Below, in pieces: positions 314-16,976 of a DNA stretch of 38,408 nt. The position numbers and the translations under genes are program-made. The notes beneath the pieces are model-generated. The model made no database searches and had not been told where the DNA came from. It saw nothing but the letters and a program-made list of their open reading frames with translations. The DNA comes from Myxococcales bacterium (lineage in GTDB: Bacteria; Myxococcota_A; Polyangia; Polyangiales; Polyangiaceae), in NCBI GenBank assembly GCA_947473045.1, contig CANJCO010000051.1, positions 1 to 38,408 on the forward strand, read 5' to 3'. Each line of letters starts with the position of its first letter. Position 1 is the stretch's first letter.

Positions 314-1624
314 ATGGCGCGAAGGCTCAGCATTCTGGCTGCGATGTGTCTATCTGCCTGCTCCGACGAATATCAGCTCCCGCCGCTCGAGGCGGTCGAC
401 GCGAGCCTGACGCCACCCGGCGCAGACGCGAGCTTCGACGCGCAGCCAGACGTGGCGGACGCGGCCAGGCCCGTCGAGGCCGGCGTCGACGCGGCTTTCG
501 CGCCGTCGAAGTTCGATGTCAACCATCTGCTCGGGACAGGGCAAAGTCTCTCGGTCGGCTACGCCGGGACGCCGACGCTTTCGACAACCCAGCCGTTCGA
601 CAACCTGCGCTTCGTGACCGGCGTCATCGCGGGCGGCAGCGGCCTCACGTCGTTCGTCCCGCTCACCGAGGCGGGCACCGAGACGCTCTCATCGTCGCTC
701 GCCAACTTCGTCCGTGCCGGCGCCGCGCATCGCATGCTGGTGAGTGCGCACGGGGTCTCGGGCATCGCGTACTCCGGGATAAAGAAGGGCACGACCGCAT
801 ATGCCAACGGTCTCGCGCAGGTCAGCGCCGCCAAGGCTCTGTGCACCTCGCAGAAGCTCACCTACGTGGTCCGCGGCGTCACCAACGTGCACGGCGAGAG
901 CGATCACCTCGCAGGCAACACCGCCTACGCCTCCAACCTCGCGCAGTGGCAGCAGGACTACGAGACCGACGTGCGCGCGATCACGGCGCAGACGGAGCCG
1001 GTCCCGATGTTCCACACGCAGATGAGCTCGTGGACGAAGTATGGTCAGGCGACGAGCGCGATCCCAGCCCAGCAGCTCATGGCGACCGTGGGCAGCGGCG
1101 GCAAGCTCGTCCTCGTCGGTGCTAAGTACCACCTGCCCTATGCGCCCGACGGCGTGCACTTGACCAACCAGGGATACCGTCAGATGGGCGAAGACTACGC
1201 GAAGGCCTATCGTCGCGTCGTGCTCGAGGGGCAGCGCTGGGAGCCGCTACGCCCGACGTCGGTGACCCGCAACGCAAACGTGATCCGGATTGTGTTCGCG
1301 GTCCCTTCACCGCCAGTTGCATTCGACACGTCGCGGGTCGCACCCGCTGCCCACATGGGGTTCGAGTACACCGACGCCTCGGGCTCACCGCCGGCGATCG
1401 CCTCCGTCGCGCTCGACGGCCCCGACGCAGTGAAGATCGTGCTCGCGTCGACCCCGACGGGCGCGAACAAGCGCGTGCGGTACGCGTTTACCGGGGTCCC
1501 GGGAGCTTCAGCCGGACCGATGACCGGCCCACGCGGCAACCTGCGCGACTCCGACGCGACCCCATCTCCGCACGGCTATTCGCTCTACAACTGGGCGGTG
1601 CACTTCGACGAGGCTGTCCAGTAG
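314..1624 (+). CDS. Secreted SGNH/sialate O-acetylesterase-like lipoprotein
   Basis: The 436-residue protein starts at ATG 314, with AAGG a few bases upstream. The N-terminus is a lipoprotein signal ending LSAC (Cys16), followed by a low-complexity Asp/Ala/Pro linker to about residue 65. The catalytic part has the blocks of the SGNH hydrolase fold as used by sialate O-acetylesterase (DUF303-like) enzymes: GQS at 76-78 (nucleophile Ser78), HGESD at 193-197, and DGVH at 279-282 giving the Asp/His pair. Residues from about 310 to the end look like a beta-sandwich domain. It probably removes acyl groups from an extracytoplasmic polysaccharide, but the substrate cannot be read from the sequence. 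It stands alone, with a tRNA gene downstream. Confidence 0.8.
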   Translation: MARRLSILAAMCLSACSDEYQLPPLEAVDASLTPPGADASFDAQPDVADAARPVEAGVDAAFAPSKFDVNHLLGTGQSLSVGYAGTPTLSTTQPFDNLRFVTGVIAGGSGLTSFVPLTEAGTETLSSSLANFVRAGAAHRMLVSAHGVSGIAYSGIKKGTTAYANGLAQVSAAKALCTSQKLTYVVRGVTNVHGESDHLAGNTAYASNLAQWQQDYETDVRAITAQTEPVPMFHTQMSSWTKYGQATSAIPAQQLMATVGSGGKLVLVGAKYHLPYAPDGVHLTNQGYRQMGEDYAKAYRRVVLEGQRWEPLRPTSVTRNANVIRIVFAVPSPPVAFDTSRVAPAAHMGFEYTDASGSPPAIASVALDGPDAVKIVLASTPTGANKRVRYAFTGVPGASAGPMTGPRGNLRDSDATPSPHGYSLYNWAVHFDEAVQ

Positions 1625-1812
1625 CCGCCGCGGCGGCTCGAGCGTCGCATCGCGCGTTCGCGACGGGGCGACGGCGAGCGAAGCGTTTCCTCCGACGAAG
1701 CCCGCGGCAGTCCTCGACGGACCCAACGGACCGACCGCGATCCAAAGCGTGGTCACCCGCGAGGCGATCGGCACGGAGCCCGCTCCGGCCCGCCGCGGCT
1801 GGTCGCTCGGGC
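1625..1812. other. Intergenic spacer, nothing recognised
   Basis: GC-rich stretch between the SGNH lipoprotein stop and the tRNA promoter. I see no reading frame with credible start and composition, and no long stem-loop. Confidence 0.5.
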
Positions 1813-1841
1813 TTGACAAGATCGGCCCGATCCAGCAATTT
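1813..1841 (+). promoter_or_regulatory. Likely sigma-70 type promoter of tRNA-Ser(CGA)
   Basis: A perfect TTGACA (1813-1818) is followed by 17 bp and CAATTT (1836-1841), which keeps the second-position A and final T of a -10 element. The tRNA begins 8 bp further on. Spacing and position fit, but the -10 box is weak. Confidence 0.5.
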
Positions 1842-1848
1842 GCGCGGC

Positions 1849-1938
1849 GGAGAGATGTCCGAGTGGCCGAAGGTTCCTGATTCGAAATCAGGTGTGCCCG
1901 CGAGGGTACCAGGGGTTCGAATCCCCTTCTCTCCGCCA
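1849..1938 (+). tRNA. tRNA-Ser (anticodon CGA)
   Basis: The acceptor stem GGAGAGA (1849-1855) pairs with TCTCTCC (1928-1934). The anticodon stem CCTGA/TCAGG encloses loop TTCGAAA with anticodon CGA at 1883-1885, reading UCG serine codons. A long variable arm and a TTCGAAT T-loop are present, as expected for a class II serine tRNA. The discriminator is G, and CCA is encoded in the DNA (1936-1938), unlike the second serine tRNA of this window. Confidence 0.97.
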
Positions 1939-2054
1939 GTTTTGCGATTCTGAAATGCCGGGCCGTCTTTGGCCGAAATCGGCACCGTGGCGAACGCGTC
2001 AGAGCCGCCCGCGCGGCTGACGCGACGGCGTAAGACCGCTGCGTGCCGGGAACA

Positions 2055-3389
2055 CTACGGCGCCGGGTAGCTCGACAGCTTCACCGCGAAGACCGCGCGA
2101 CTTCCTGCGGCCTCCGACAAGCTCCACAGCCAGCCGCTTGCGCGATCGACCATCACGTCTTCCGGCGAATCCGCGAAGCCCGAAGTAGCGCTCTTGCCCG
2201 GAGCCGCACGGTAGAGCGCCCCGCCCGAGCCCGCCGGCGCGCTCGACGAGAGCAGGAAGAGGCCGTCATTCGCAGCGCCGCCCTGCATCTGCTTGTGGCT
2301 CGCGAAAAACGCCTCGGCCGGCCAGCTCCTCGCCTCCGCGGCTTGCGGAAGCCCCGTCGCCGCCAGGAGCGGCCAACGAAATATTTTGCCCGACAGCGGC
2401 GAGGCGCACGCGGCGCCGCTGCAGTATTCACCCGAGATGAGCGACGGCGGCGAGGTGCTTCGATCGAGCGACAACCACGAATAGATCGGGTTGCACGCCG
2501 ACTGATCGACCACGCTTCCAACTTGCAGCAGCACATATTTGTACAGGCCCGCGCGGCAGATCGTGGGCGTACAGCCGACCGTGTCCTGATCGACCGCAAC
2601 TTCGAGAATGCGGCTCATGTCGAACACGCGAATTCCCCTTCCGGTGTCGGCCACGAACAGCCAGTTGCCGAACCACACCATGCCGCCTGCGTGAACATTG
2701 ACGGGCACGAAATTCGGGCTCGCCGCGGTACCCGAAGGCTCGACCAGCAAGACGAACCGGTAGACGGGCGCGGCCGCGGTCGTCACGTCGACGAACGCGA
2801 TGCGCACCCCCTTTCCGAGCATCGCGTCTTCATAGAAGCTCACCAAAACCGCGCGCTTTCCGCCCACGAGTCCGGCCGGGTCGGCGTCCGGCGTCCCGGT
2901 GATCCCCTGGGGGATCCACGTGGTGGAGGCCTGATCGGCGGCGTTCCACGCGAAGGCGTAGGCGAGCCCCGCCGGCGAGCCCGCCACCTGATTCACCTTT
3001 GCGGCGGTTCGGTTCGCGTCGGCGAGCACGGCGCCGACGCTGACCTTTGTGCCCAACTTTTCGAGCGCAGCGACCACCGCTGGGTTCGCGGCGGGGCCGG
3101 GCCCCATGGGGAATGCGCATCGGTCGACGGCGCTGAGCCCGCTTCCCTCGGACAACGCTGCCGGCACCGAGGGGCAGGCGCTGGCCTTCGCTGCGCACGG
3201 ATCGGCTGCGTCCGGAGCAGCGGCTGCGTCGGTAGGGAGCCCGGGCGAAGCGTCGGGCGAGGCGCCCGAGTCAGGTCCGATGACAGCCGCGGCATCTGCA
3301 GCCGGGTCGACGCGCGAATCGGACGCGCAGGCGACGACGGCCAACGCCAGGCAGGCCGCGGTCGCACGCTGAGCCGATCGCCACACCAT
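2055..3389 (-). CDS. Secreted lipoprotein, probable beta-propeller-like protein of unknown function
   Basis: The 444-residue protein has a signal peptide ending VVAC (Cys21), then an Asp/Ala/Pro linker rich in PDA and PDSG. The mature part has short beta-rich segments, for example VWFGNWLFVADTGRG followed by IRVFDMSRIL, of the kind seen in secreted propeller-like proteins of actinobacteria and myxobacteria. There is no catalytic motif I recognise, and several Cys pairs suggest disulphides. It lies alone between two serine tRNA genes. It is a real gene by composition and signal peptide, but its role is unknown. Confidence 0.75.
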   Translation of the reverse strand: MVWRSAQRATAACLALAVVACASDSRVDPAADAAAVIGPDSGASPDASPGLPTDAAAAPDAADPCAAKASACPSVPAALSEGSGLSAVDRCAFPMGPGPAANPAVVAALEKLGTKVSVGAVLADANRTAAKVNQVAGSPAGLAYAFAWNAADQASTTWIPQGITGTPDADPAGLVGGKRAVLVSFYEDAMLGKGVRIAFVDVTTAAAPVYRFVLLVEPSGTAASPNFVPVNVHAGGMVWFGNWLFVADTGRGIRVFDMSRILEVAVDQDTVGCTPTICRAGLYKYVLLQVGSVVDQSACNPIYSWLSLDRSTSPPSLISGEYCSGAACASPLSGKIFRWPLLAATGLPQAAEARSWPAEAFFASHKQMQGGAANDGLFLLSSSAPAGSGGALYRAAPGKSATSGFADSPEDVMVDRASGWLWSLSEAAGSRAVFAVKLSSYPAP

Positions 3390-3461
3390 CGGCCCATGGT
3401 AGCGAATCGGGGCGTCGCTGTGAATCAGGGCGGCTTCGGGAGCCGGCTACCTGCTTGCTTG

Positions 3462-3487
3462 AAGCCCCCCGCTTTCGGCAGGGGCTT
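3462..3487 (-). terminator. Probable terminator of tRNA-Ser(GGA)
   Basis: The inverted repeat AAGCCCC (3462-3468) / GGGGCTT (3481-3487) lies just downstream of the minus-strand tRNA. On that strand it ends in CTTC rather than a T run, so a weak intrinsic terminator or a processing structure is likely. Confidence 0.45.
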
Positions 3488-3503
3488 TGGTGGTCGTGCG
3501 TTG

Positions 3504-3590
3504 CGGAGAGAGAGGGATTCGAACCCTCGGAACCCTTGCGAGCTCACATGATTTCCAATCATGCACCTTCGGCCACTCGGTCATCTCTCC
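3504..3590 (-). tRNA. tRNA-Ser (anticodon GGA)
   Basis: On the minus strand the acceptor GGAGAGA (3590-3584) pairs with TCTCTCC (3511-3505). The anticodon stem CATGA/TCATG encloses TTGGAAA, with anticodon GGA at 3556-3554, reading UCC/UCU. The long variable arm and T-loop TTCGAAT are typical of serine tRNAs. The discriminator G (3504) is followed by CAA, so the CCA end must be added post-transcriptionally. The D-arm region is identical to that of the CGA tRNA 1.6 kb away. Confidence 0.97.
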
Positions 3591-3657
3591 AATGAGGGGC
3601 GCCCGCTTGATAGCACGGGCAGCGCCCGCGTGGCACCGCAGTTTCGCGGCGCTGCGA

Positions 3658-5907
3658 TCAGCGGCCCCAAATTCGAAGTGCGGCGGTCAGCGCGGCGTCG
3701 GGCGCGACGTAGCCCGACCGCACCGCGGGCGCCTGCGCGACCTCCGCCGCCTTCGTCCGCAGCAGCGCATCGGTGAGCGGATAGTCACGGCTCACATCGC
3801 TGGCGCACGCAGGATCGACGTCAAAGTTGCAGATCGCGGCGCGCTCTACGCCGCCCGACAACACCAGCGATCCGAGGCGCAGCGATGCCCTCTGCCTCGC
3901 CGAAGTGGCCACGAGCATGCGATCATCCGGCGAGGCCGCGAGCGCGAGCACGTCCGCCCCGCCGAACGCCTGGGGCGGAGCAAGCCCGAGCGACGCGACG
4001 ACCGAGCGCGCGAGATCCGCCGACGACGTGGGCGCCGGCGAGCGCGTTCCGGCGAGCGCAGCGGCGCCCGGGTGCCTCACCACCAGCGGAATCGACAGGG
4101 CGGTCTCGTCGAGGGTCCCGTCGTCGCTGAACGGCACGTGCGCCGTTGCTGAAACCCCTACGTCGCCCGTGACGAACACAACGGTGTCGTCCTGATGTCC
4201 CGCGTCGCTCAGCGCCCGCAACAGGCGTCCGAGCGCGGCGTCGTGCTCGGCGACCGCGACCGCGAGCAGCGCCATCGATCGAATGCGGTCGGCGTCGCTG
4301 AAGCGCACGAGCGGCGGCACACGACGCGCCTTCGCGAGCACCTCCCCGGCGTGGCGCGGATCGATCGGACCGGAATAGCCTTCCGGGGGCAGCGTCTTGA
4401 GTGCATCGCCTGCGACATCCCACGGCGGATGGCCTCCGCGCGCGTGCACCAGCACCAAAAAGCGCTCCGCCTTGTGCTTGTCGATCCAGGCTGCCGCGTC
4501 GTCGAAGACGCGCGTCGCGGGCTGATCGGGCGAAGGCAGCAGCGATTCGAAGTCGACCCAGTCGCGATCGAAGCCGTAGGCCGCGCTCGTGGTGGGGTTC
4601 GCAGTGAACATCGCCGCCTGAATCCCCGCATCGCGCGCGGCTCGCGCCAGGGTTAGCGGCGCGTCTGCGAGCCTCAGCGCGTCGTCCTCGGCGCCGTGCT
4701 GCGGGGGCATCAGCCCGGTGATCAGGGAGCCGACCGATCCCGCGGCCCACGTCGTGGTCGCGCGGTGCCGCTCGAAGACCACTGCGCGCTTGGCGAACGC
4801 CTCCAGCGAGGGCGACGCGAGCGGACCGCCGTGAAGCGACAGCATCGACGGCGGCGTATCCCCGAGCACCACCACAACCGCGTTTCGAGCTCCCTGCAGC
4901 TTGTTCGGCAGCGACGACGGCGGCGCCACCACCCGCACGTCGCCGAGGAGCACCCGCGCCGAGCGCGAAGCGTTGGTCACCTCGATTTCCAGCGCGATCG
5001 CGCTTCCGGCAGCCTCCTCGGGGATCGCGACGACCAAGGGCCGCCACGTCTGTGCCGTAGCGTGCAGGCGTCCAAGCTCGATCGAAGGCGCGTGATCGCG
5101 CGCGATCCGAACCACGATTTCGGCCTCGCCGCGGCCGGCCACAGCCGCCGACAGCTGAGCGGTCGCCCCCTTCGGAAGCACGCCGACGCACCGCAAAAAG
5201 CCGGGCGTCGGCACGGAGAGCGCCCGCTTGGCGACCCCCGCAACCGTCTGCGCCACCACCGCGTCGGCGCGGGTCGGGGCGGAGTACGAAGCCTCGATGG
5301 GCGAGGCCCCGATGCGAATCCAGTCAATCTCCGCCACCGGGTCGGTCGACGATTTCGGTACGCCGTTGAAGCGGATCATCAAGTGCGCCGGCGCCGACGG
5401 AAGCGCCACGGAGGTGGAGCGCGCAGACACCACGCGCGTCTCGCCCTTCACGAGCGGCCACGTGCCTACGGCCTTGCCGTCGAGGTAGACCGTGGCGCTC
5501 TTCGCGGTGAGGCTGCGGATCCGGGAGTCGATGCTGATCTCGGGGCGTCCTGCGTCGGACGAAGCCGCACCGAACCCTGTTGAGAGCGGCAGAAAGCGCA
5601 GTGACAGCGTCCGCGACAGCGCGCGCTCCCAGCTCGCGCCATCACGCTCGACCGCGATCGTGGGCTCGCGCATCGCAAGCTCGCTTCGGGCCGCGCGCTC
5701 ACCGAGATCGAGCAGCAGGCCCTGATGACCAAGCGTGCACGACGCCGGGCGCTCAATCGGGTCCATCACCACCCTGAGAAGCGGCGCCGAAGCATCGGCG
5801 AGCTCAACGGGAGCGACGCCGACGGGGGCGGGCGCCGGGTCGCCACGACGGGTCGAGCAGCCGCCGGCCAACAGGGCCAGCACAAGCGCTGCGCGCGTGC
5901 GGTTCAC
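3658..5907 (-). CDS. Sulfatase-fold lipoprotein lacking the catalytic formylglycine site
   Basis: The 749-residue protein starts at GTG, overlapping by 4 bp (GTGA) the stop of the upstream receiver gene. It has a lipoprotein signal (LAGGC, Cys17), about 320 residues of beta-rich sequence, and then an alkaline-phosphatase-superfamily domain from about 341. Landmarks are one metal-type Asp (D350 in VVLGD), GSLITG (393-398) followed by PPQHG, a VFVTGDVG segment (577-584), and SIPLVVRHPG. The sulfatase signature C-x-P-x-R before S-L-L-T-G reads A388, G390, V392 here. The usual D-H of the metal site is D582-V583. A classical sulfatase reaction is therefore unlikely. A binding or signalling role, or use of a nearby Thr (384-386), remains open. 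Confidence 0.75.
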   Translation of the reverse strand: MNRTRAALVLALLAGGCSTRRGDPAPAPVGVAPVELADASAPLLRVVMDPIERPASCTLGHQGLLLDLGERAARSELAMREPTIAVERDGASWERALSRTLSLRFLPLSTGFGAASSDAGRPEISIDSRIRSLTAKSATVYLDGKAVGTWPLVKGETRVVSARSTSVALPSAPAHLMIRFNGVPKSSTDPVAEIDWIRIGASPIEASYSAPTRADAVVAQTVAGVAKRALSVPTPGFLRCVGVLPKGATAQLSAAVAGRGEAEIVVRIARDHAPSIELGRLHATAQTWRPLVVAIPEEAAGSAIALEIEVTNASRSARVLLGDVRVVAPPSSLPNKLQGARNAVVVVLGDTPPSMLSLHGGPLASPSLEAFAKRAVVFERHRATTTWAAGSVGSLITGLMPPQHGAEDDALRLADAPLTLARAARDAGIQAAMFTANPTTSAAYGFDRDWVDFESLLPSPDQPATRVFDDAAAWIDKHKAERFLVLVHARGGHPPWDVAGDALKTLPPEGYSGPIDPRHAGEVLAKARRVPPLVRFSDADRIRSMALLAVAVAEHDAALGRLLRALSDAGHQDDTVVFVTGDVGVSATAHVPFSDDGTLDETALSIPLVVRHPGAAALAGTRSPAPTSSADLARSVVASLGLAPPQAFGGADVLALAASPDDRMLVATSARQRASLRLGSLVLSGGVERAAICNFDVDPACASDVSRDYPLTDALLRTKAAEVAQAPAVRSGYVAPDAALTAALRIWGR

Positions 5908-8765
5908 GGCGCCGAAGCGTCGCCACGCGCGGAGTGCGAGTCGTGCGAGCGACGGGCGGACGCCGGCTGCGCGAGGTGCAAAGACGCGTGCGTGTGCGCG
6001 CTCTGCTCGTGCGGAGCGAGGGCCCGCGGCTGCGCGTCAGCCGCCGTCAACTCCTGCGGGTCCATCGCGAGCGGAGTCAGACCTGCATCGGCGGAAGCCG
6101 CCACCTGCTGCTCCGACGGCGGCGCGGCGGCGGGCTCGGCGATCGCCGACACCGCAACGACCTGCGGCGGGGCAGACGCAGGCGGCGCGGTCGAGGCGCG
6201 AACGCCCACCGCACCCAGGGCCACCAGCGCCACCAGCCCCACAACCCAGCGCCACGGACTCGCCGGCGACCTCATCGGCGGCGGCGCGAAGACCGGCGGC
6301 GCGGGCGTGCGCGTGGGACGGGCGCCGTCGTCGTCGGATGCGTCGAGGTCGATCGCCGTCATGTCGACGGCCGCGGGAACGGGCGCCGACGCGATGACCT
6401 CAGCCTCGTAGAGCGTCTCTACCTCGGTGGCCTCAGACACGAGCCTGGGAGCGCTGTCTGGAGCGGAACCGTCGACCGTGCGCTGACTCGGCCGCTGCGA
6501 AGGCGCCGCGGGCGCGATTTCGCTTCCGACAATGGCAAGCGCCGCCGCGACTGCGGCAGGCAGGCGATCTTCGCCCGACTCGTCGACCACACCCACGATC
6601 GCGCCGCGCGCACCGAGATCGCACAGCAGCTCTTCAAGGAGCGACGGGGACTCAGCGCCGTAGACGATGAGGTCGCGAACAAACGTGCCGCCAGCGAGGC
6701 GCTCGAGCAGCGCGCGCGTGGTGGCGGGCAGCACGACCCCGTAGGCGCGCACCGCTTCGTCATCGAGCTTCAGCCGCAAGCGCTGTTTCAGGGCGACGCC
6801 TGACGCGAGCGCCACCGCGCCCCTGGCAGCCGCGATCGGCGCGGCCGTGAGCTCGGCGAAGGTGCCGGTGCGCTCCGACTCGAAGTCCACCGATGATGCT
6901 GGCGCGATCACGAATCGACCCGCGCCGACGCCCAGAAGCGCCGCCATGGCGCGCGGACCGTGCGTGTATCCTGCATCAATCGAAGTACGGCTCACGCGCT
7001 TGGGTGCGCCGCCGCGAATTTCAAGTTCGTAGAGGCTGGAAGCGTCGCGAATCGACACGCGCGAATCGGGCCGCTGCGTGCAGACGAGCGACAGCAGCGA
7101 GTGCACCGTGAGCCCGTCGAGGCGGCCGCTCACTTCGCCGACGCCCTTCATGCGAGCCTCCACGCGAGCGCGCGGCCAGATCGCTTCGCGCACGCGGGCG
7201 AGCACCGCGCGACCGTCGCTTTCCTTGCGCATGTAGGCCGCGGCGCCTGCGCCGAGCTCCCGCATGCGCTGCAGGAGGTCTTCCTTCCACGACAGCAGAA
7301 TGACCGGAGTGTCGCGCAGCACGACGTCACGCTTGAGGGCGCGCGTCAGAGCGTAGCCGTCGAGCTTCGGCATGAGAATGTCGCTCAGCACGAGGTCCGG
7401 GCACACGCGCATCGCGAGCTCGAGCGCCGCTTCGCCGTCGGCCGCTTCGTGCACGACGCAGCCGCTTTCACGCAGCAAATCGGCCAAAAACCAGCGCACC
7501 GCCGGGTCGTCGTCCGCCACGACGATGCAGCGCCCTTCGAGCGCAACGTCGACAGCGGCGCCGCGGCCCCGGAAGCGCGCGCGATCGGAGCCTGCCGACT
7601 CGGGATCGAGCCACGGCGCGAGAATCGAAGCCCCCTCGGGGCCCCGGCCCGCAAAGCGAACCGCGCCCCCGGTTCGCGCAGTGACCACTTCGCGAACGCG
7701 CGCGATGGCACCCCACATCGCAGCCATCACCTCGGTGCCTTCGCCGAGCGACACGCGGTGGTTTCGTCCTGACGCATCCACCGACCCCGCCAGCGCGCGC
7801 TGAAGCTCGGCGGCCAGGCGCTCGCTCAGCTGTTCGAGGGTGGGATCACCCAGGGCGAGGCGCGCGGTTCGACCCTCGCAACTGGCCACAGCCGCCTCGC
7901 ACACGCTCCGCAGCGCCTCGCCGGCGCAGGGCATACGAATCACCTCGGCGACACCGAGCGCGAGAAACTTCGAGGCTCCAGCCTCGTCGAGGCCGCCCGC
8001 GACGACGATCGGAACCGACCAGGTGAGCGCATCTTCGCTCAGGGCGATCGCGAGCGCTTCGGCGCCCTGCAGCGCAGCATCCAGCACCAGGACGTCCGGC
8101 GCGAGCGCGCGCGTCATGGCGAGGGCGTCCTCGGCGCTGCCGGTGCGCTCCACATCGAGGGTGCGCGTGGCACGCGGGCTCTCTTCGCCGAGCGCTTCGG
8201 CGAGCGCGTCCGCGCCAACGACGAGCGCAGTGATCGGAGGCAACGCGATGCGCGAGGGCGCTGGCGCAGGCGGGGTCGGATGCGCCATCGCCGCCGAGGC
8301 GACAGTCGGCGCCGCAGCGGTCTTCTTCGCGCTCGGGGCAGAGGCGATCGCCGGCTTCACCGTCGCCGCCCGGGCGGGGATGGCCGACCGAACCTCGGGC
8401 GCTGGCGGAGAGACCGGAGCGCTCGACCAGGCCAGGTCGGCGAGCCCGTCGAGGGTCGTGGTGAGCGCCACGAGGCTGCGCGGATCGGGAGACGTCGACC
8501 CTTCACCGAGGCTTTTTTCAGCCTCCTTGAGCGCGAGGGCCATCGCGTCGAAGCGTAGCATCTTCGCCGACGCTCCCATGGCGTGCAGCTTCCGGCGGAG
8601 CGCGTCGCGCGGCGCCTTCGACTGCAAGTCCGCCTCGAGCGCGTTGAGGCTCACCCGCGCGTCGGCGATCTTGCGGCCGAGCGAAGCCACGAACTCTGCG
8701 CTGACCCCGCTGAGGCCCTGCGCGCTGCTTGCTCGATCCGACCCGCTCGATTGATGGCTCGCCAT
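5904..8765 (-). CDS. Membrane-anchored receiver protein with DUF4388/PATAN domain
   Basis: The 953-residue protein has these parts in order. Residues 20-115 are an Hpt-like helical region with a candidate His61. Residues 120-170 are an Ala/Pro linker. Residues 178-295 are a pseudo-receiver that keeps D229 but has lost the acidic pair and the late Lys (M278-P279). Residues 411-530 are a complete receiver (DDD 418-420, phospho-acceptor D462 in LSDILMP, S492, K514). From about 545 to 625 there is a DUF4388/PATAN-like domain beginning GRLDGLTVHSLLSLV. A transmembrane helix lies at about 838-857, and the last 95 residues form a His-containing low-complexity tail. No DNA-binding domain is visible. 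Its start is 78 bp from the divergent Eis-like gene, and it is coupled to the sulfatase-like gene. It probably relays a phosphorylation signal at the membrane. Confidence 0.8.
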   Translation of the reverse strand: MASHQSSGSDRASSAQGLSGVSAEFVASLGRKIADARVSLNALEADLQSKAPRDALRRKLHAMGASAKMLRFDAMALALKEAEKSLGEGSTSPDPRSLVALTTTLDGLADLAWSSAPVSPPAPEVRSAIPARAATVKPAIASAPSAKKTAAAPTVASAAMAHPTPPAPAPSRIALPPITALVVGADALAEALGEESPRATRTLDVERTGSAEDALAMTRALAPDVLVLDAALQGAEALAIALSEDALTWSVPIVVAGGLDEAGASKFLALGVAEVIRMPCAGEALRSVCEAAVASCEGRTARLALGDPTLEQLSERLAAELQRALAGSVDASGRNHRVSLGEGTEVMAAMWGAIARVREVVTARTGGAVRFAGRGPEGASILAPWLDPESAGSDRARFRGRGAAVDVALEGRCIVVADDDPAVRWFLADLLRESGCVVHEAADGEAALELAMRVCPDLVLSDILMPKLDGYALTRALKRDVVLRDTPVILLSWKEDLLQRMRELGAGAAAYMRKESDGRAVLARVREAIWPRARVEARMKGVGEVSGRLDGLTVHSLLSLVCTQRPDSRVSIRDASSLYELEIRGGAPKRVSRTSIDAGYTHGPRAMAALLGVGAGRFVIAPASSVDFESERTGTFAELTAAPIAAARGAVALASGVALKQRLRLKLDDEAVRAYGVVLPATTRALLERLAGGTFVRDLIVYGAESPSLLEELLCDLGARGAIVGVVDESGEDRLPAAVAAALAIVGSEIAPAAPSQRPSQRTVDGSAPDSAPRLVSEATEVETLYEAEVIASAPVPAAVDMTAIDLDASDDDGARPTRTPAPPVFAPPPMRSPASPWRWVVGLVALVALGAVGVRASTAPPASAPPQVVAVSAIAEPAAAPPSEQQVAASADAGLTPLAMDPQELTAADAQPRALAPHEQSAHTHASLHLAQPASARRSHDSHSARGDASAP

Positions 8766-14042: not shown

Positions 14043-16976
14043 ATGAGCGGAATCTGGCTGCGGCTGCGCGCGGCGCTCACGGCAGCGATTGTCGTGATCG
14101 CGCTCGGCTCCGCCCCGGGCGCGTTCGAGCGCATCGCGCTTGCCCCCGCTGTAGCGCCGCTACCGGCCGAGCCCGCGAGCGCCCGCGACGCGAGCCTCAC
14201 CCTGAGCGTGACCACCGAAGCTGGAGCGCCGCTGCAGGGGGCGCGCGTGGTCGTGATGACGGTGCGTGCCGGAGTCGCCTACGAAACCGCGCGCGCCGTG
14301 ACCGACGCGGGGGGCAAGGCCATCCTGCGCGAATTGCCCGGAGGCGACGCGTGGGTTTTGGTCAACGCCGACGGACGCGCGCGCGCATCGTCGCATCTGC
14401 TGCTCGAAGGAGCGCGGCAGCTCGTGCTGGCGCTCGCCCCGGAAGCCCACTTCGACGTGCTCGTCCGCGATCCCGAAGGACAGCCGGTCGCCGGCGCGGC
14501 GATCGAGGCGACCGCTGCGGAGCCGCTACCCGTCGGCGCCACGACCGACGCGGAAGGACGCGCGCGCGTCGGCAGGCTCGGCGCGGGGCCCTGGCGGGTG
14601 GAGATTCGCGCGCCCGGCTACGACACGGCCCGCGAGCGCGCGACGGGCGGCGAGACGCTTGCGGTCACGCTCAGGCGTCTCGGCTCAATCCTCGTGCGCG
14701 TCGTCGATGGCGAAGGCAGGCCCGTCCCTGGGGCGCGCGTACAAATCGCAGGCGCATCGCTGTGGCCGGCGCGCGAGGGAAAGACCGGCGAAAAAGGCAT
14801 GGTCAAGCTCGCCGGGCTGTACGCAGGCGCCTACGCGCTGCGCGCTACGCAGGGCGGAAACGCGTCCGCAACGGAGCTCGCGCTCCCGCTCGCGGCCGGA
14901 GAGAACAAAGAGCTCGTGCTGGCCGTACGGCCCGGTCGAATGGTGCACGTGCGCGTCGTCACCGGCGATGAGGGCGCGGACGCGCCGCCGGTCGCAGGCG
15001 CCCGGATCGTGCTGGCCGAAGGCGGCCTCTCGCCGTTCCCGCTCGAAGCCGTCTCCGACGCGCGCGGCGCCGCGACGCTGGGCCCCATCGCTGCAGGCGC
15101 GAGCTTCGTTTCAGCCCGGGCCGAGGGCTACGTCGGCGGCGGCGGAGCGCTCGTCGCCGAGCCGTTGACCGGCGAGATCGTGGTCGCCCTCGCGAAGGCG
15201 GGGACGCTCGGCGGACGGGTCACCGACGCGCGCGGCTTCCCCATCGCCGGTGTCACCCTCGAGGTGATCGGTAGCGACTTCGCCGGAGGCCCGATCGACG
15301 ACGATCCGCGGGCGCGCGCGTTTCGGGACGCGCATTTCGACGCGGTGCTTCCCGGTCCCTCCGCGCTCGTCGCGAAGGGCGAGCTTGGGGTGGTCCCCGG
15401 ACCGGTGCCGCCGATCCCGCGCGCGAATGAGCGCGTCATGGGGTTTTCCCCGCCCGCAGCCCCCGCGAGCGGCGCGCCGTGGGCGAGCGCAAAAGACGGC
15501 ACGTTCGCGATCGGACCGGTCACGCCTGGTCGCGTGCGCGTGCTCGCGCGGCACCCGGAGTACGTCGAGGCGCTCAGCGAAATCGTCACCCTCGCATCGG
15601 GCGGACGGGTCGACGACGTCACCATCGTCCTGCGCGCAGGCGGATCGATTGAAGGCCGCGTGGTTGCGGCGAGCGGCGCGGCCGTGGCCGGCGCGCGCGT
15701 CGAGCTCATCGCCACGCGCGGCACTTTCTCGAGGCAGACGCACACCGCCAGCGACGGCACATTTGCGTTTTCGGCCGTACCCGACGCCTGCACGGTCGAC
15801 GTCTACGTCAGCGACGCCGCGCTGCAGCCGAGCGCACGCGTGGGCGCCGTGGTGCCCGAGGGCGGCCGGCGCGAGCTGACGATCCGGCTCCCAACCGCGC
15901 GGGATGCGCTGACGGTGACGGTGCGCGACGATCGCGGCTATCCACTCGCCGCGGCGCAGCTCACGCTGCTGTCGCTCGATCCTGGCGAACCGCTGCGCGA
16001 AACCGCGTTCACCGATGCGCGCGGAGACGCATCGCTCGCGGGCTGCGTTGGACTCCCGGCGCGCCTCGAGGTGAGGGCCCCGGGACATGCGCCAAAGGCG
16101 CTGCCGCAAGCGCGCACGCCCGCACACCTCGACATCACGGTCGACCCGGCGCTCTCGGTCCGCGGCGAAGTGCGCGCGAGCCGCGGCAACGACAGCCCGG
16201 CGGCAACGATTGTATTTTACACAGAGCTTGGCCCCCGCAGCGTCGCGGCGCTCGCGGACGGTTCGTTTGCCGCGCAGGAGCTCAGCCCGGGCAGCGCGCG
16301 CGTGCTCATCCGGGCGCCCGGATTCGCGCGGCTCGAAAAGTCCCTGACGCTCAAGGCGAGCGCGTCCGGCAGACCCGTCGATATCGGACGCTTCGAGCTG
16401 TCACCCGAAGCGCGCGTCACAGGCACGGTGCTGAGCGCCCGCGGGCAGCCCGTGCAGGGCGCACGTGTTTCAGAGGGGCACGCGCCCACATTCCTGCCGC
16501 AAGGTGCGCCCCCGCCCGGAGTGGCGATCACCGACGCGCGCGGCCGCTTCGATCTCGGCGAGCTTTCCGCGGGCAACCTGTCGCTCGAGGCCTGGGGGCC
16601 CGATGACGGAACAGGCGCCGTAATGGTGCAGACCGCCGCCGGTCGCGCCACGAGCGATGTTCGCATCACGCTCGGCACGCGCGCGCCCCCCTCGCGCGAG
16701 CCGGCGACAACCGGCGGCGTCGCGGTCACGCTGGGAGAGCGCAGCGGAGAGCCTCGCGAAGTCGTCATCGTCTCGGTGGCACAGGGCAGCGAAGCCGAGC
16801 GCGCGGGACTCGCTCCGGGCGACGCCATCGTCACCGTCGACGACGCAAAAGTCGCGACCATCGAAGAGGCGCGGGCGCGGCTGAGCGGCCCCATCGAGCG
16901 CGACGTCATCGTCCGCCTGTCGCAGGGCGGCAAAGAGCGCGTGGTGCGCGTGTCGCGTGAGCGCGTTCGGCGCTGA
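14043..16976 (+). CDS. Large protein of repeated carboxypeptidase-regulatory domains with C-terminal PDZ
   Basis: The 977-residue protein has an N-terminal signal or anchor helix (about 10-30). It is followed by roughly eight or nine beta-sandwich repeats of the carboxypeptidase regulatory-like/transthyretin type. Each carries a signature such as V-D-G-x-G-x-P-V-x-G-A-x-V and then a T-D-A-x-G-x-A turn, visible near 50, 145, 220, 310, 400, 535, 640, 720 and 790. Residues about 892-970 form a PDZ domain with the A-G-L-x-x-G-D-x-I signature. There is no protease domain. It looks like an extracytoplasmic scaffold that binds C-termini or unfolded peptides. Its stop is only 2 bp from the convergent coaD stop. 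Confidence 0.82.
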   Translation: MSGIWLRLRAALTAAIVVIALGSAPGAFERIALAPAVAPLPAEPASARDASLTLSVTTEAGAPLQGARVVVMTVRAGVAYETARAVTDAGGKAILRELPGGDAWVLVNADGRARASSHLLLEGARQLVLALAPEAHFDVLVRDPEGQPVAGAAIEATAAEPLPVGATTDAEGRARVGRLGAGPWRVEIRAPGYDTARERATGGETLAVTLRRLGSILVRVVDGEGRPVPGARVQIAGASLWPAREGKTGEKGMVKLAGLYAGAYALRATQGGNASATELALPLAAGENKELVLAVRPGRMVHVRVVTGDEGADAPPVAGARIVLAEGGLSPFPLEAVSDARGAATLGPIAAGASFVSARAEGYVGGGGALVAEPLTGEIVVALAKAGTLGGRVTDARGFPIAGVTLEVIGSDFAGGPIDDDPRARAFRDAHFDAVLPGPSALVAKGELGVVPGPVPPIPRANERVMGFSPPAAPASGAPWASAKDGTFAIGPVTPGRVRVLARHPEYVEALSEIVTLASGGRVDDVTIVLRAGGSIEGRVVAASGAAVAGARVELIATRGTFSRQTHTASDGTFAFSAVPDACTVDVYVSDAALQPSARVGAVVPEGGRRELTIRLPTARDALTVTVRDDRGYPLAAAQLTLLSLDPGEPLRETAFTDARGDASLAGCVGLPARLEVRAPGHAPKALPQARTPAHLDITVDPALSVRGEVRASRGNDSPAATIVFYTELGPRSVAALADGSFAAQELSPGSARVLIRAPGFARLEKSLTLKASASGRPVDIGRFELSPEARVTGTVLSARGQPVQGARVSEGHAPTFLPQGAPPPGVAITDARGRFDLGELSAGNLSLEAWGPDDGTGAVMVQTAAGRATSDVRITLGTRAPPSREPATTGGVAVTLGERSGEPREVVIVSVAQGSEAERAGLAPGDAIVTVDDAKVATIEEARARLSGPIERDVIVRLSQGGKERVVRVSRERVRR

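Follow-up and report, generated by a model that had tools for sequence, protein, structure and literature searches.

Two adjacent genes on the reverse strand of a Polyangiaceae contig raise the question of whether a membrane-anchored receiver protein and an exported protein with the fold of a sulfatase, devoid of its catalytic residues, work together. The window, meaning the whole stretch of DNA analysed (38,408 nucleotides), is one whole contig of a nearly complete 5.15 Mb genome, whose named near relatives are the Polyangiaceae Sorangium, Polyangium, Minicystis and Labilithrix. Gene 1 (5904..8765, (-)), defined by the list of open reading frames (ORFs), a PF00072 match and an AlphaFold2 model, encodes a receiver protein of 953 residues. 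Gene 2 (3658..5907, (-)), defined by the ORF list, Pfam, an AlphaFold2 model and structural and profile matches, encodes a lipoprotein of 749 residues. The two share the stop/start overlap GTGA at 5904..5907 (-), where the sequence reads ..GCG CCG TGA.. with GTG AAC CGC beginning inside it, and the GTG start of gene 2 is supported by the clean lipoprotein signal that follows. Both ORFs and the 4-bp overlap are as described in the initial annotation, which had also taken the overlap to mean a fixed ratio of the products through translational coupling. This second point does not hold generally: when junctions were compared, the overlap was exactly -4 in 8 loci, a minority that sits beside the short spacers or different overlaps of most other loci, so that a ratio set by coupling is no general property of the pair. 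The sister species (L033) also has a 4-bp overlap, there by a TTG start.

The gene 1 product is a receiver protein, predicted to be cytoplasmic and to carry a single membrane helix towards its C-terminus. Its model (pLDDT 74.5 overall, above 90 in most folded domains) contains, in order, an Hpt-like bundle (residues 21–113), a receiver fold (175–297), helices at 310–364, a canonical receiver (413–540), a PATAN-like and then a winged-helix-like part (545–747), a disordered linker, a helix (838–857) and a disordered tail. The Hpt-like four-helix bundle (8427..8705, (-)) was assigned from the model helices and from a PF01627 match at residues 34–109 that falls under the gathering score (E 6.6e-4); His61 is present, and the corresponding histidine is found in 24 of the 34 aligned homologues. 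The first receiver-like domain, REC1 (7875..8243, (-)), delimited on the model, has a degenerate pocket, with Asp229 kept in 34/34 homologues and the remaining site residues not conserved. The second, REC2 (7146..7529, (-)), is recognized by Pfam (PF00072 at residues 414–525, E 2.3e-25) and by alignment, and it has the features of a response regulator: an acidic pocket, an Asp acceptor, a Ser/Thr and a Lys (D418–D420, D462, S492 and K514). D420, D462 and K514 are found in all 34 homologues, and D418, D419 and S492 in 32–33 of them. The output region (6525..7133, (-)) is tentatively named PATAN/DUF4388-like and winged-helix-like from the secondary structure of the model and from sub-threshold Pfam matches to DUF4388 in the relatives L072 and L063, the window copy giving no match. 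The single transmembrane helix (6195..6254, (-)), predicted from hydropathy and seen as a helix in the model, is kept in nearly all homologues checked. Both the REC2 phosphorylation site and the membrane helix are conserved in lineages with active and with dead partners, L211 and L054 being among the few exceptions. The receiver region also matched an SduA model, weakly only, which was taken as chance, and a role in anti-phage defence was set aside; a search of plasmid DNA returned receiver-domain noise only.

The gene 2 product begins with a lipoprotein signal peptide (MNRTRAALVLALLAGGC; 5857..5907, (-)), read from the sequence, whose lipobox Cys17 is found in 51 of 54 aligned homologues. It is followed in the AlphaFold2 model (pLDDT 91.1, pTM 0.89) by two N-terminal β-rich domains (residues 45–200 and 217–328; 4924..5775, (-)) and by a sulfatase/alkaline-phosphatase fold (residues 340–735; 3703..4890, (-)), which is matched by PF00884 (Sulfatase) at residues 344–641 (E 2.8e-22). 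The best structural match is the S1 sulfatase 6hhm (VIA Z 35.9 over 377 residues; Foldseek probability 1.00), and the core fold of the superfamily is present.

The catalytic machinery of this fold is gone. The former nucleophile loop (residues 386–394; 4726..4752, (-)) reads TWAAGSVGS where active relatives have NWTKPSVAS in the alignment. The nucleophile position itself is Ala388 in the window and mostly A, V or P, with S, E, T or G in a minority, among the 54 homologues, and the flanking motif is absent; the loop of the window protein lacks the catalytic Cys, Ser or Thr of the superfamily. The metal site (DD/DTLR.. and DHG) is equally affected, since the first Asp pair has disappeared in most homologues and the DHG motif is reduced in dead homologues to D582 with neighbouring V, A or L. 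These metal-site motifs are absent from the window and from all close homologues, and the distant homologues keep DTLRADKL, NWTKPS and DHGEEF. What marks the dead family in the alignment is the motif HARGGHPPW (residues 488–496; 4420..4446, (-)), nearly strict as HARG[GA]HPPW and aligned with TIDPHVPYD in active proteins; it served as the search pattern for the family. H488, R490, H493 and P494 are found in 54/54 homologues, all of them f1 or f5 proteins in our family labels, as is Asp582 (4162..4164, (-)), the residue kept from the former DHG motif. W196 is likewise invariant and the Cys residues nearly so. Because these residues are invariant across 54 sequences of about 30–55% identity to the window protein, the dead protein is under selection. 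The catalytically dead exported partner claimed in the initial annotation is therefore a clade-wide state and not a one-off decay, and so long-kept a loss of enzyme chemistry suggests, from sequence comparison, a binding or sensing part and not an enzyme.

The pair has few fixed surroundings. A tRNA-Ser (CGA) lies at 1849–1938 (+) and a tRNA-Ser (GGA) at 3503–3590 (-), the latter just downstream of gene 2, where a tRNA-Ser is kept in eight related genomes. The ORFs at 1488–1985 (-), 3487–4152 (+) and 2043–3551 (+) give GIRTLGTLA..FQS-type peptides across or beside the tRNA-Ser genes and are probably artefacts, not genes. Elsewhere in the window, 14043–16976 (+) encodes a 977-residue protein in which Pfam finds some eight CarboxypepD_reg repeats and, at the C-terminus, a PDZ domain.

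The adjacency of the two genes was followed across the order, with residues 400–745 as the query for the receiver. The window's own family, f1, contains 96 genomes with the lipoprotein, 98 with the receiver core and 89 with both. The genes are on different contigs in 11 of these 89, several at contig ends, and G157 has them on different contigs. Where both are on the same contig, the receiver gene is upstream of the lipoprotein gene on the same strand in 76 of 78 genomes, within 3.5 kb between match ends in 73 and within 5 kb in three; the two are on opposite strands in G070 and G109. Kept in 76 of the 78 assessable genomes, the adjacency is above chance and the pair is no local accident. At 50 loci compared for their neighbours, the receiver gene was kept in 39, against 12 or fewer for any other group, some of these being antisense mirrors, and no third conserved neighbour emerged. 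Beyond f1 the pair is found in f2, f3, f4, f5, f7, f8, f10 and f12, so that nine or more families of the order have it; among the class- and phylum-level homologues retrieved, no adjacency was found outside the order. A neighbourhood conserved throughout Myxococcota, which the initial annotation had proposed to look for, is thus too wide a claim, whereas conservation within the order stands, and together with the congruent trees described below it supports the shared role that had been suggested for the two genes. In some genomes of f4, f9 and f12 (L201-L204, L206-L208), a receiver gene with a PEGA-like tail has no sulfatase-fold partner adjoining it.

Outside f1, f5 and f3 the active site of the partner is intact (L171 was classed as active after reading by eye). 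In the lipoprotein tree, the partners from f1 and f5, every one of them dead, make up a single clade apart from the active homologues (support 100), in agreement with one change. In f3 (L194-L200), a very divergent dead copy of the partner, missed by ordinary searches, lies directly downstream of the receiver gene. The pattern of its losses differs, with RGLRADRL, RELPA and SRA or DRG at the motif positions; H493 is absent and D582 partly lost. The receiver-core tree, which was built without the lipoprotein and is free of catalytic signal, groups f3 with f1 and f5 (support 96/91). Since the trees of both genes place the three families in one clade, catalysis was probably lost once, in their common ancestor, with the pair retained; two separate losses in sister lineages would be a less simple reading.

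The part of the receiver protein that would face outward behaves differently. The exported tail (residues 858–953, 96 residues; 5907..6194, (-)) is disordered in the model, with a pLDDT below 50, at about 30, and the domain search found no PEGA domain in it; neither a PEGA domain nor a frameshifted remnant was found in any frame of the window. Most relatives carry a PEGA domain at this position, after the membrane helix, with PF08308 above the gathering score in L072, and the sister species L033 still carries one, unlike the window. The PEGA domain is ancestral, because active lineages also have it, and it has disappeared repeatedly, the window, genus g42 and f5 being among the cases. The two intact f5 copies have tails of 19–39 residues, and across f5 and one f1 genus the tail is shortened to 13–39 residues, the pair nevertheless being kept. 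Repeated loss of PEGA with retention of the membrane helix is seen in L036, L043, L052, L053, L055, L154 and L156. The initial annotation had pointed to this tail as the surface that contacts the lipoprotein. Its predicted disorder, the loss of PEGA and the difference from the PEGA-bearing sister species make it a poor candidate, and a conserved interface there is unlikely.

Taken together, the adjacency in 76/78 genomes, the single dead clade, the kept REC2 site, the invariant residues of the dead protein and its confidently predicted fold lead us to propose, with a probability of about one half, that the two genes encode a signalling module spanning the envelope, in which the exported subunit has turned into a pseudoenzyme that serves for binding. 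REC2 would be phosphorylated in the cytoplasm by a kinase, and the receiver protein would act through its PATAN/winged-helix-like region while tethered to the inner membrane by one helix. The ancestral partner would have been a hydrolase or transferase of the alkaline-phosphatase superfamily with a Thr nucleophile, and in the ancestor of the three families it would have lost catalysis to become a non-catalytic binding subunit. This subunit probably recognizes an anionic component of the envelope or matrix through a remodelled cleft (H488/R490/H493/D582), and it may either signal to the receiver protein whether the cleft is occupied or have its own state set by that protein. Not all dead versions share the proposed pocket, since f3 partners have lost H493 and, partly, D582. 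Conservation along the receiver protein is lowest in its exported portion, so that a contact in the periplasm would need to involve the membrane helix or another, third protein. A few genomes moreover have the pair split (G070, G109, G157 and several of f4, f9 and f12), which counts against the module. A narrower version, in which receiver phosphorylation sets the state of the pseudo-sulfatase in an inside-out two-component module that controls a pathway of the envelope or the extracellular matrix, the enzyme having become a pseudoenzyme once with the signalling half intact, seems rather unlikely.

A less likely alternative is that no ligand is sensed, and that the lipoprotein, membrane helix and PEGA tail merely position the receiver/PATAN hub in the envelope, for example at a pole or in a motility complex, the sulfatase fold being a rigid scaffold. 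Such an anchor would fit a membrane helix that is conserved beside a variable tail, and many of the invariant residues are Gly, Pro or Trp, compatible with maintenance of the fold; PATAN-domain proteins also figure in discussions of regulators, and candidate regulators, of polarity and motility (PMC10519157, PMC11580455). The charged H488, R490, H493 and D582, retained at the former active site throughout the f1/f5 proteins, nevertheless suggest more than a scaffold. The same strictly conserved His/Arg/His/Asp set, being in the right part of the fold, could also be read as a different catalytic set for a new hydrolase or transferase reaction, so that the lipoprotein would not be dead; we consider this very improbable, as both the nucleophile and the metal-site motifs by which the superfamily's catalysis is defined have disappeared, and H493 is missing from f3, a sister lineage that is also dead.

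The pairing itself might reflect ordinary co-transcription, with shared regulation and slow rearrangement holding together genes that serve separate processes. The restriction of the 4-bp overlap to a minority of loci and the genomes with a split pair agree with this, and the tRNA-Ser kept directly downstream in close genera reveals some background synteny. All other neighbours, however, turn over, while the pair persists over many genera and families, and the two trees agree in mapping catalytic death to one clade, which makes this explanation unlikely.

The proposed trans-envelope module has partial counterparts among known systems. In YejM/PbgA/LapC, a protein of the envelope, the sulfatase fold goes with a regulatory role (PMC7773988, PMC7576196), and opinions differ on whether YejM has enzyme activity of its own (PMC7773988 versus PMC7576196). 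Gene 2 gives a sequence-profile match to the YejM/PbgA structure 6vc7 (E 3.4e-11), and in both cases the sulfatase/LtaS-type fold is exported, that of YejM facing the periplasm. YejM, however, is an enterobacterial inner-membrane protein with its own N-terminal five-transmembrane domain, regulates LPS and keeps Thr302 in most species, whereas gene 2 combines a lipoprotein signal with two β domains, is paired with a receiver protein and has lost the nucleophile. By analogy, YejM would be the nearest precedent for the putative binding or sensing role. S1-family sulfatases and phosphonate monoester hydrolases (6hhm, 4uph, 2vqr) share the fold at residues 340–735 (Z 32–36); gene 2 differs from both in lacking the nucleophile and metal ligands, in its extra N-terminal β domains and in standing nearly always beside a receiver gene in f1. 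Gene 1 resembles multi-receiver response regulators such as PleD (REC-REC'-output), its top Foldseek matches, in having a degenerate and a canonical receiver in one chain, but an Hpt-like bundle comes first and the output is PATAN/winged-helix-like with a membrane helix instead of GGDEF. A receiver beside a PATAN-like region, recognized here by weak matches in relatives, also recalls PATAN (DUF4388) proteins such as PatA and those of Myxococcus; the descriptions consulted mention, for these, neither a membrane helix nor an exported PEGA tail nor a partner lipoprotein. In LapD-type inside-out signalling, a cytoplasmic switch is read out in the periplasm, and the likeness is confined to that idea, the domains being different. 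Each part is thus of a known kind, and no description of the combination was found in the open-access literature on PEGA/DUF4388 with response regulators, membrane-anchored response regulators or pseudo-sulfatases.

As a natural experiment, the pair could show how an enzyme turns into a signalling subunit. The two genes occur with an active partner in several families and with a dead partner in three others, and the trees of both genes support where the switch is placed. For work on Sorangium, Polyangium, Minicystis and Labilithrix the pair would provide a testable trans-envelope signalling module, and it would add to YejM a further case of a sulfatase-like fold that may sense instead of cutting.
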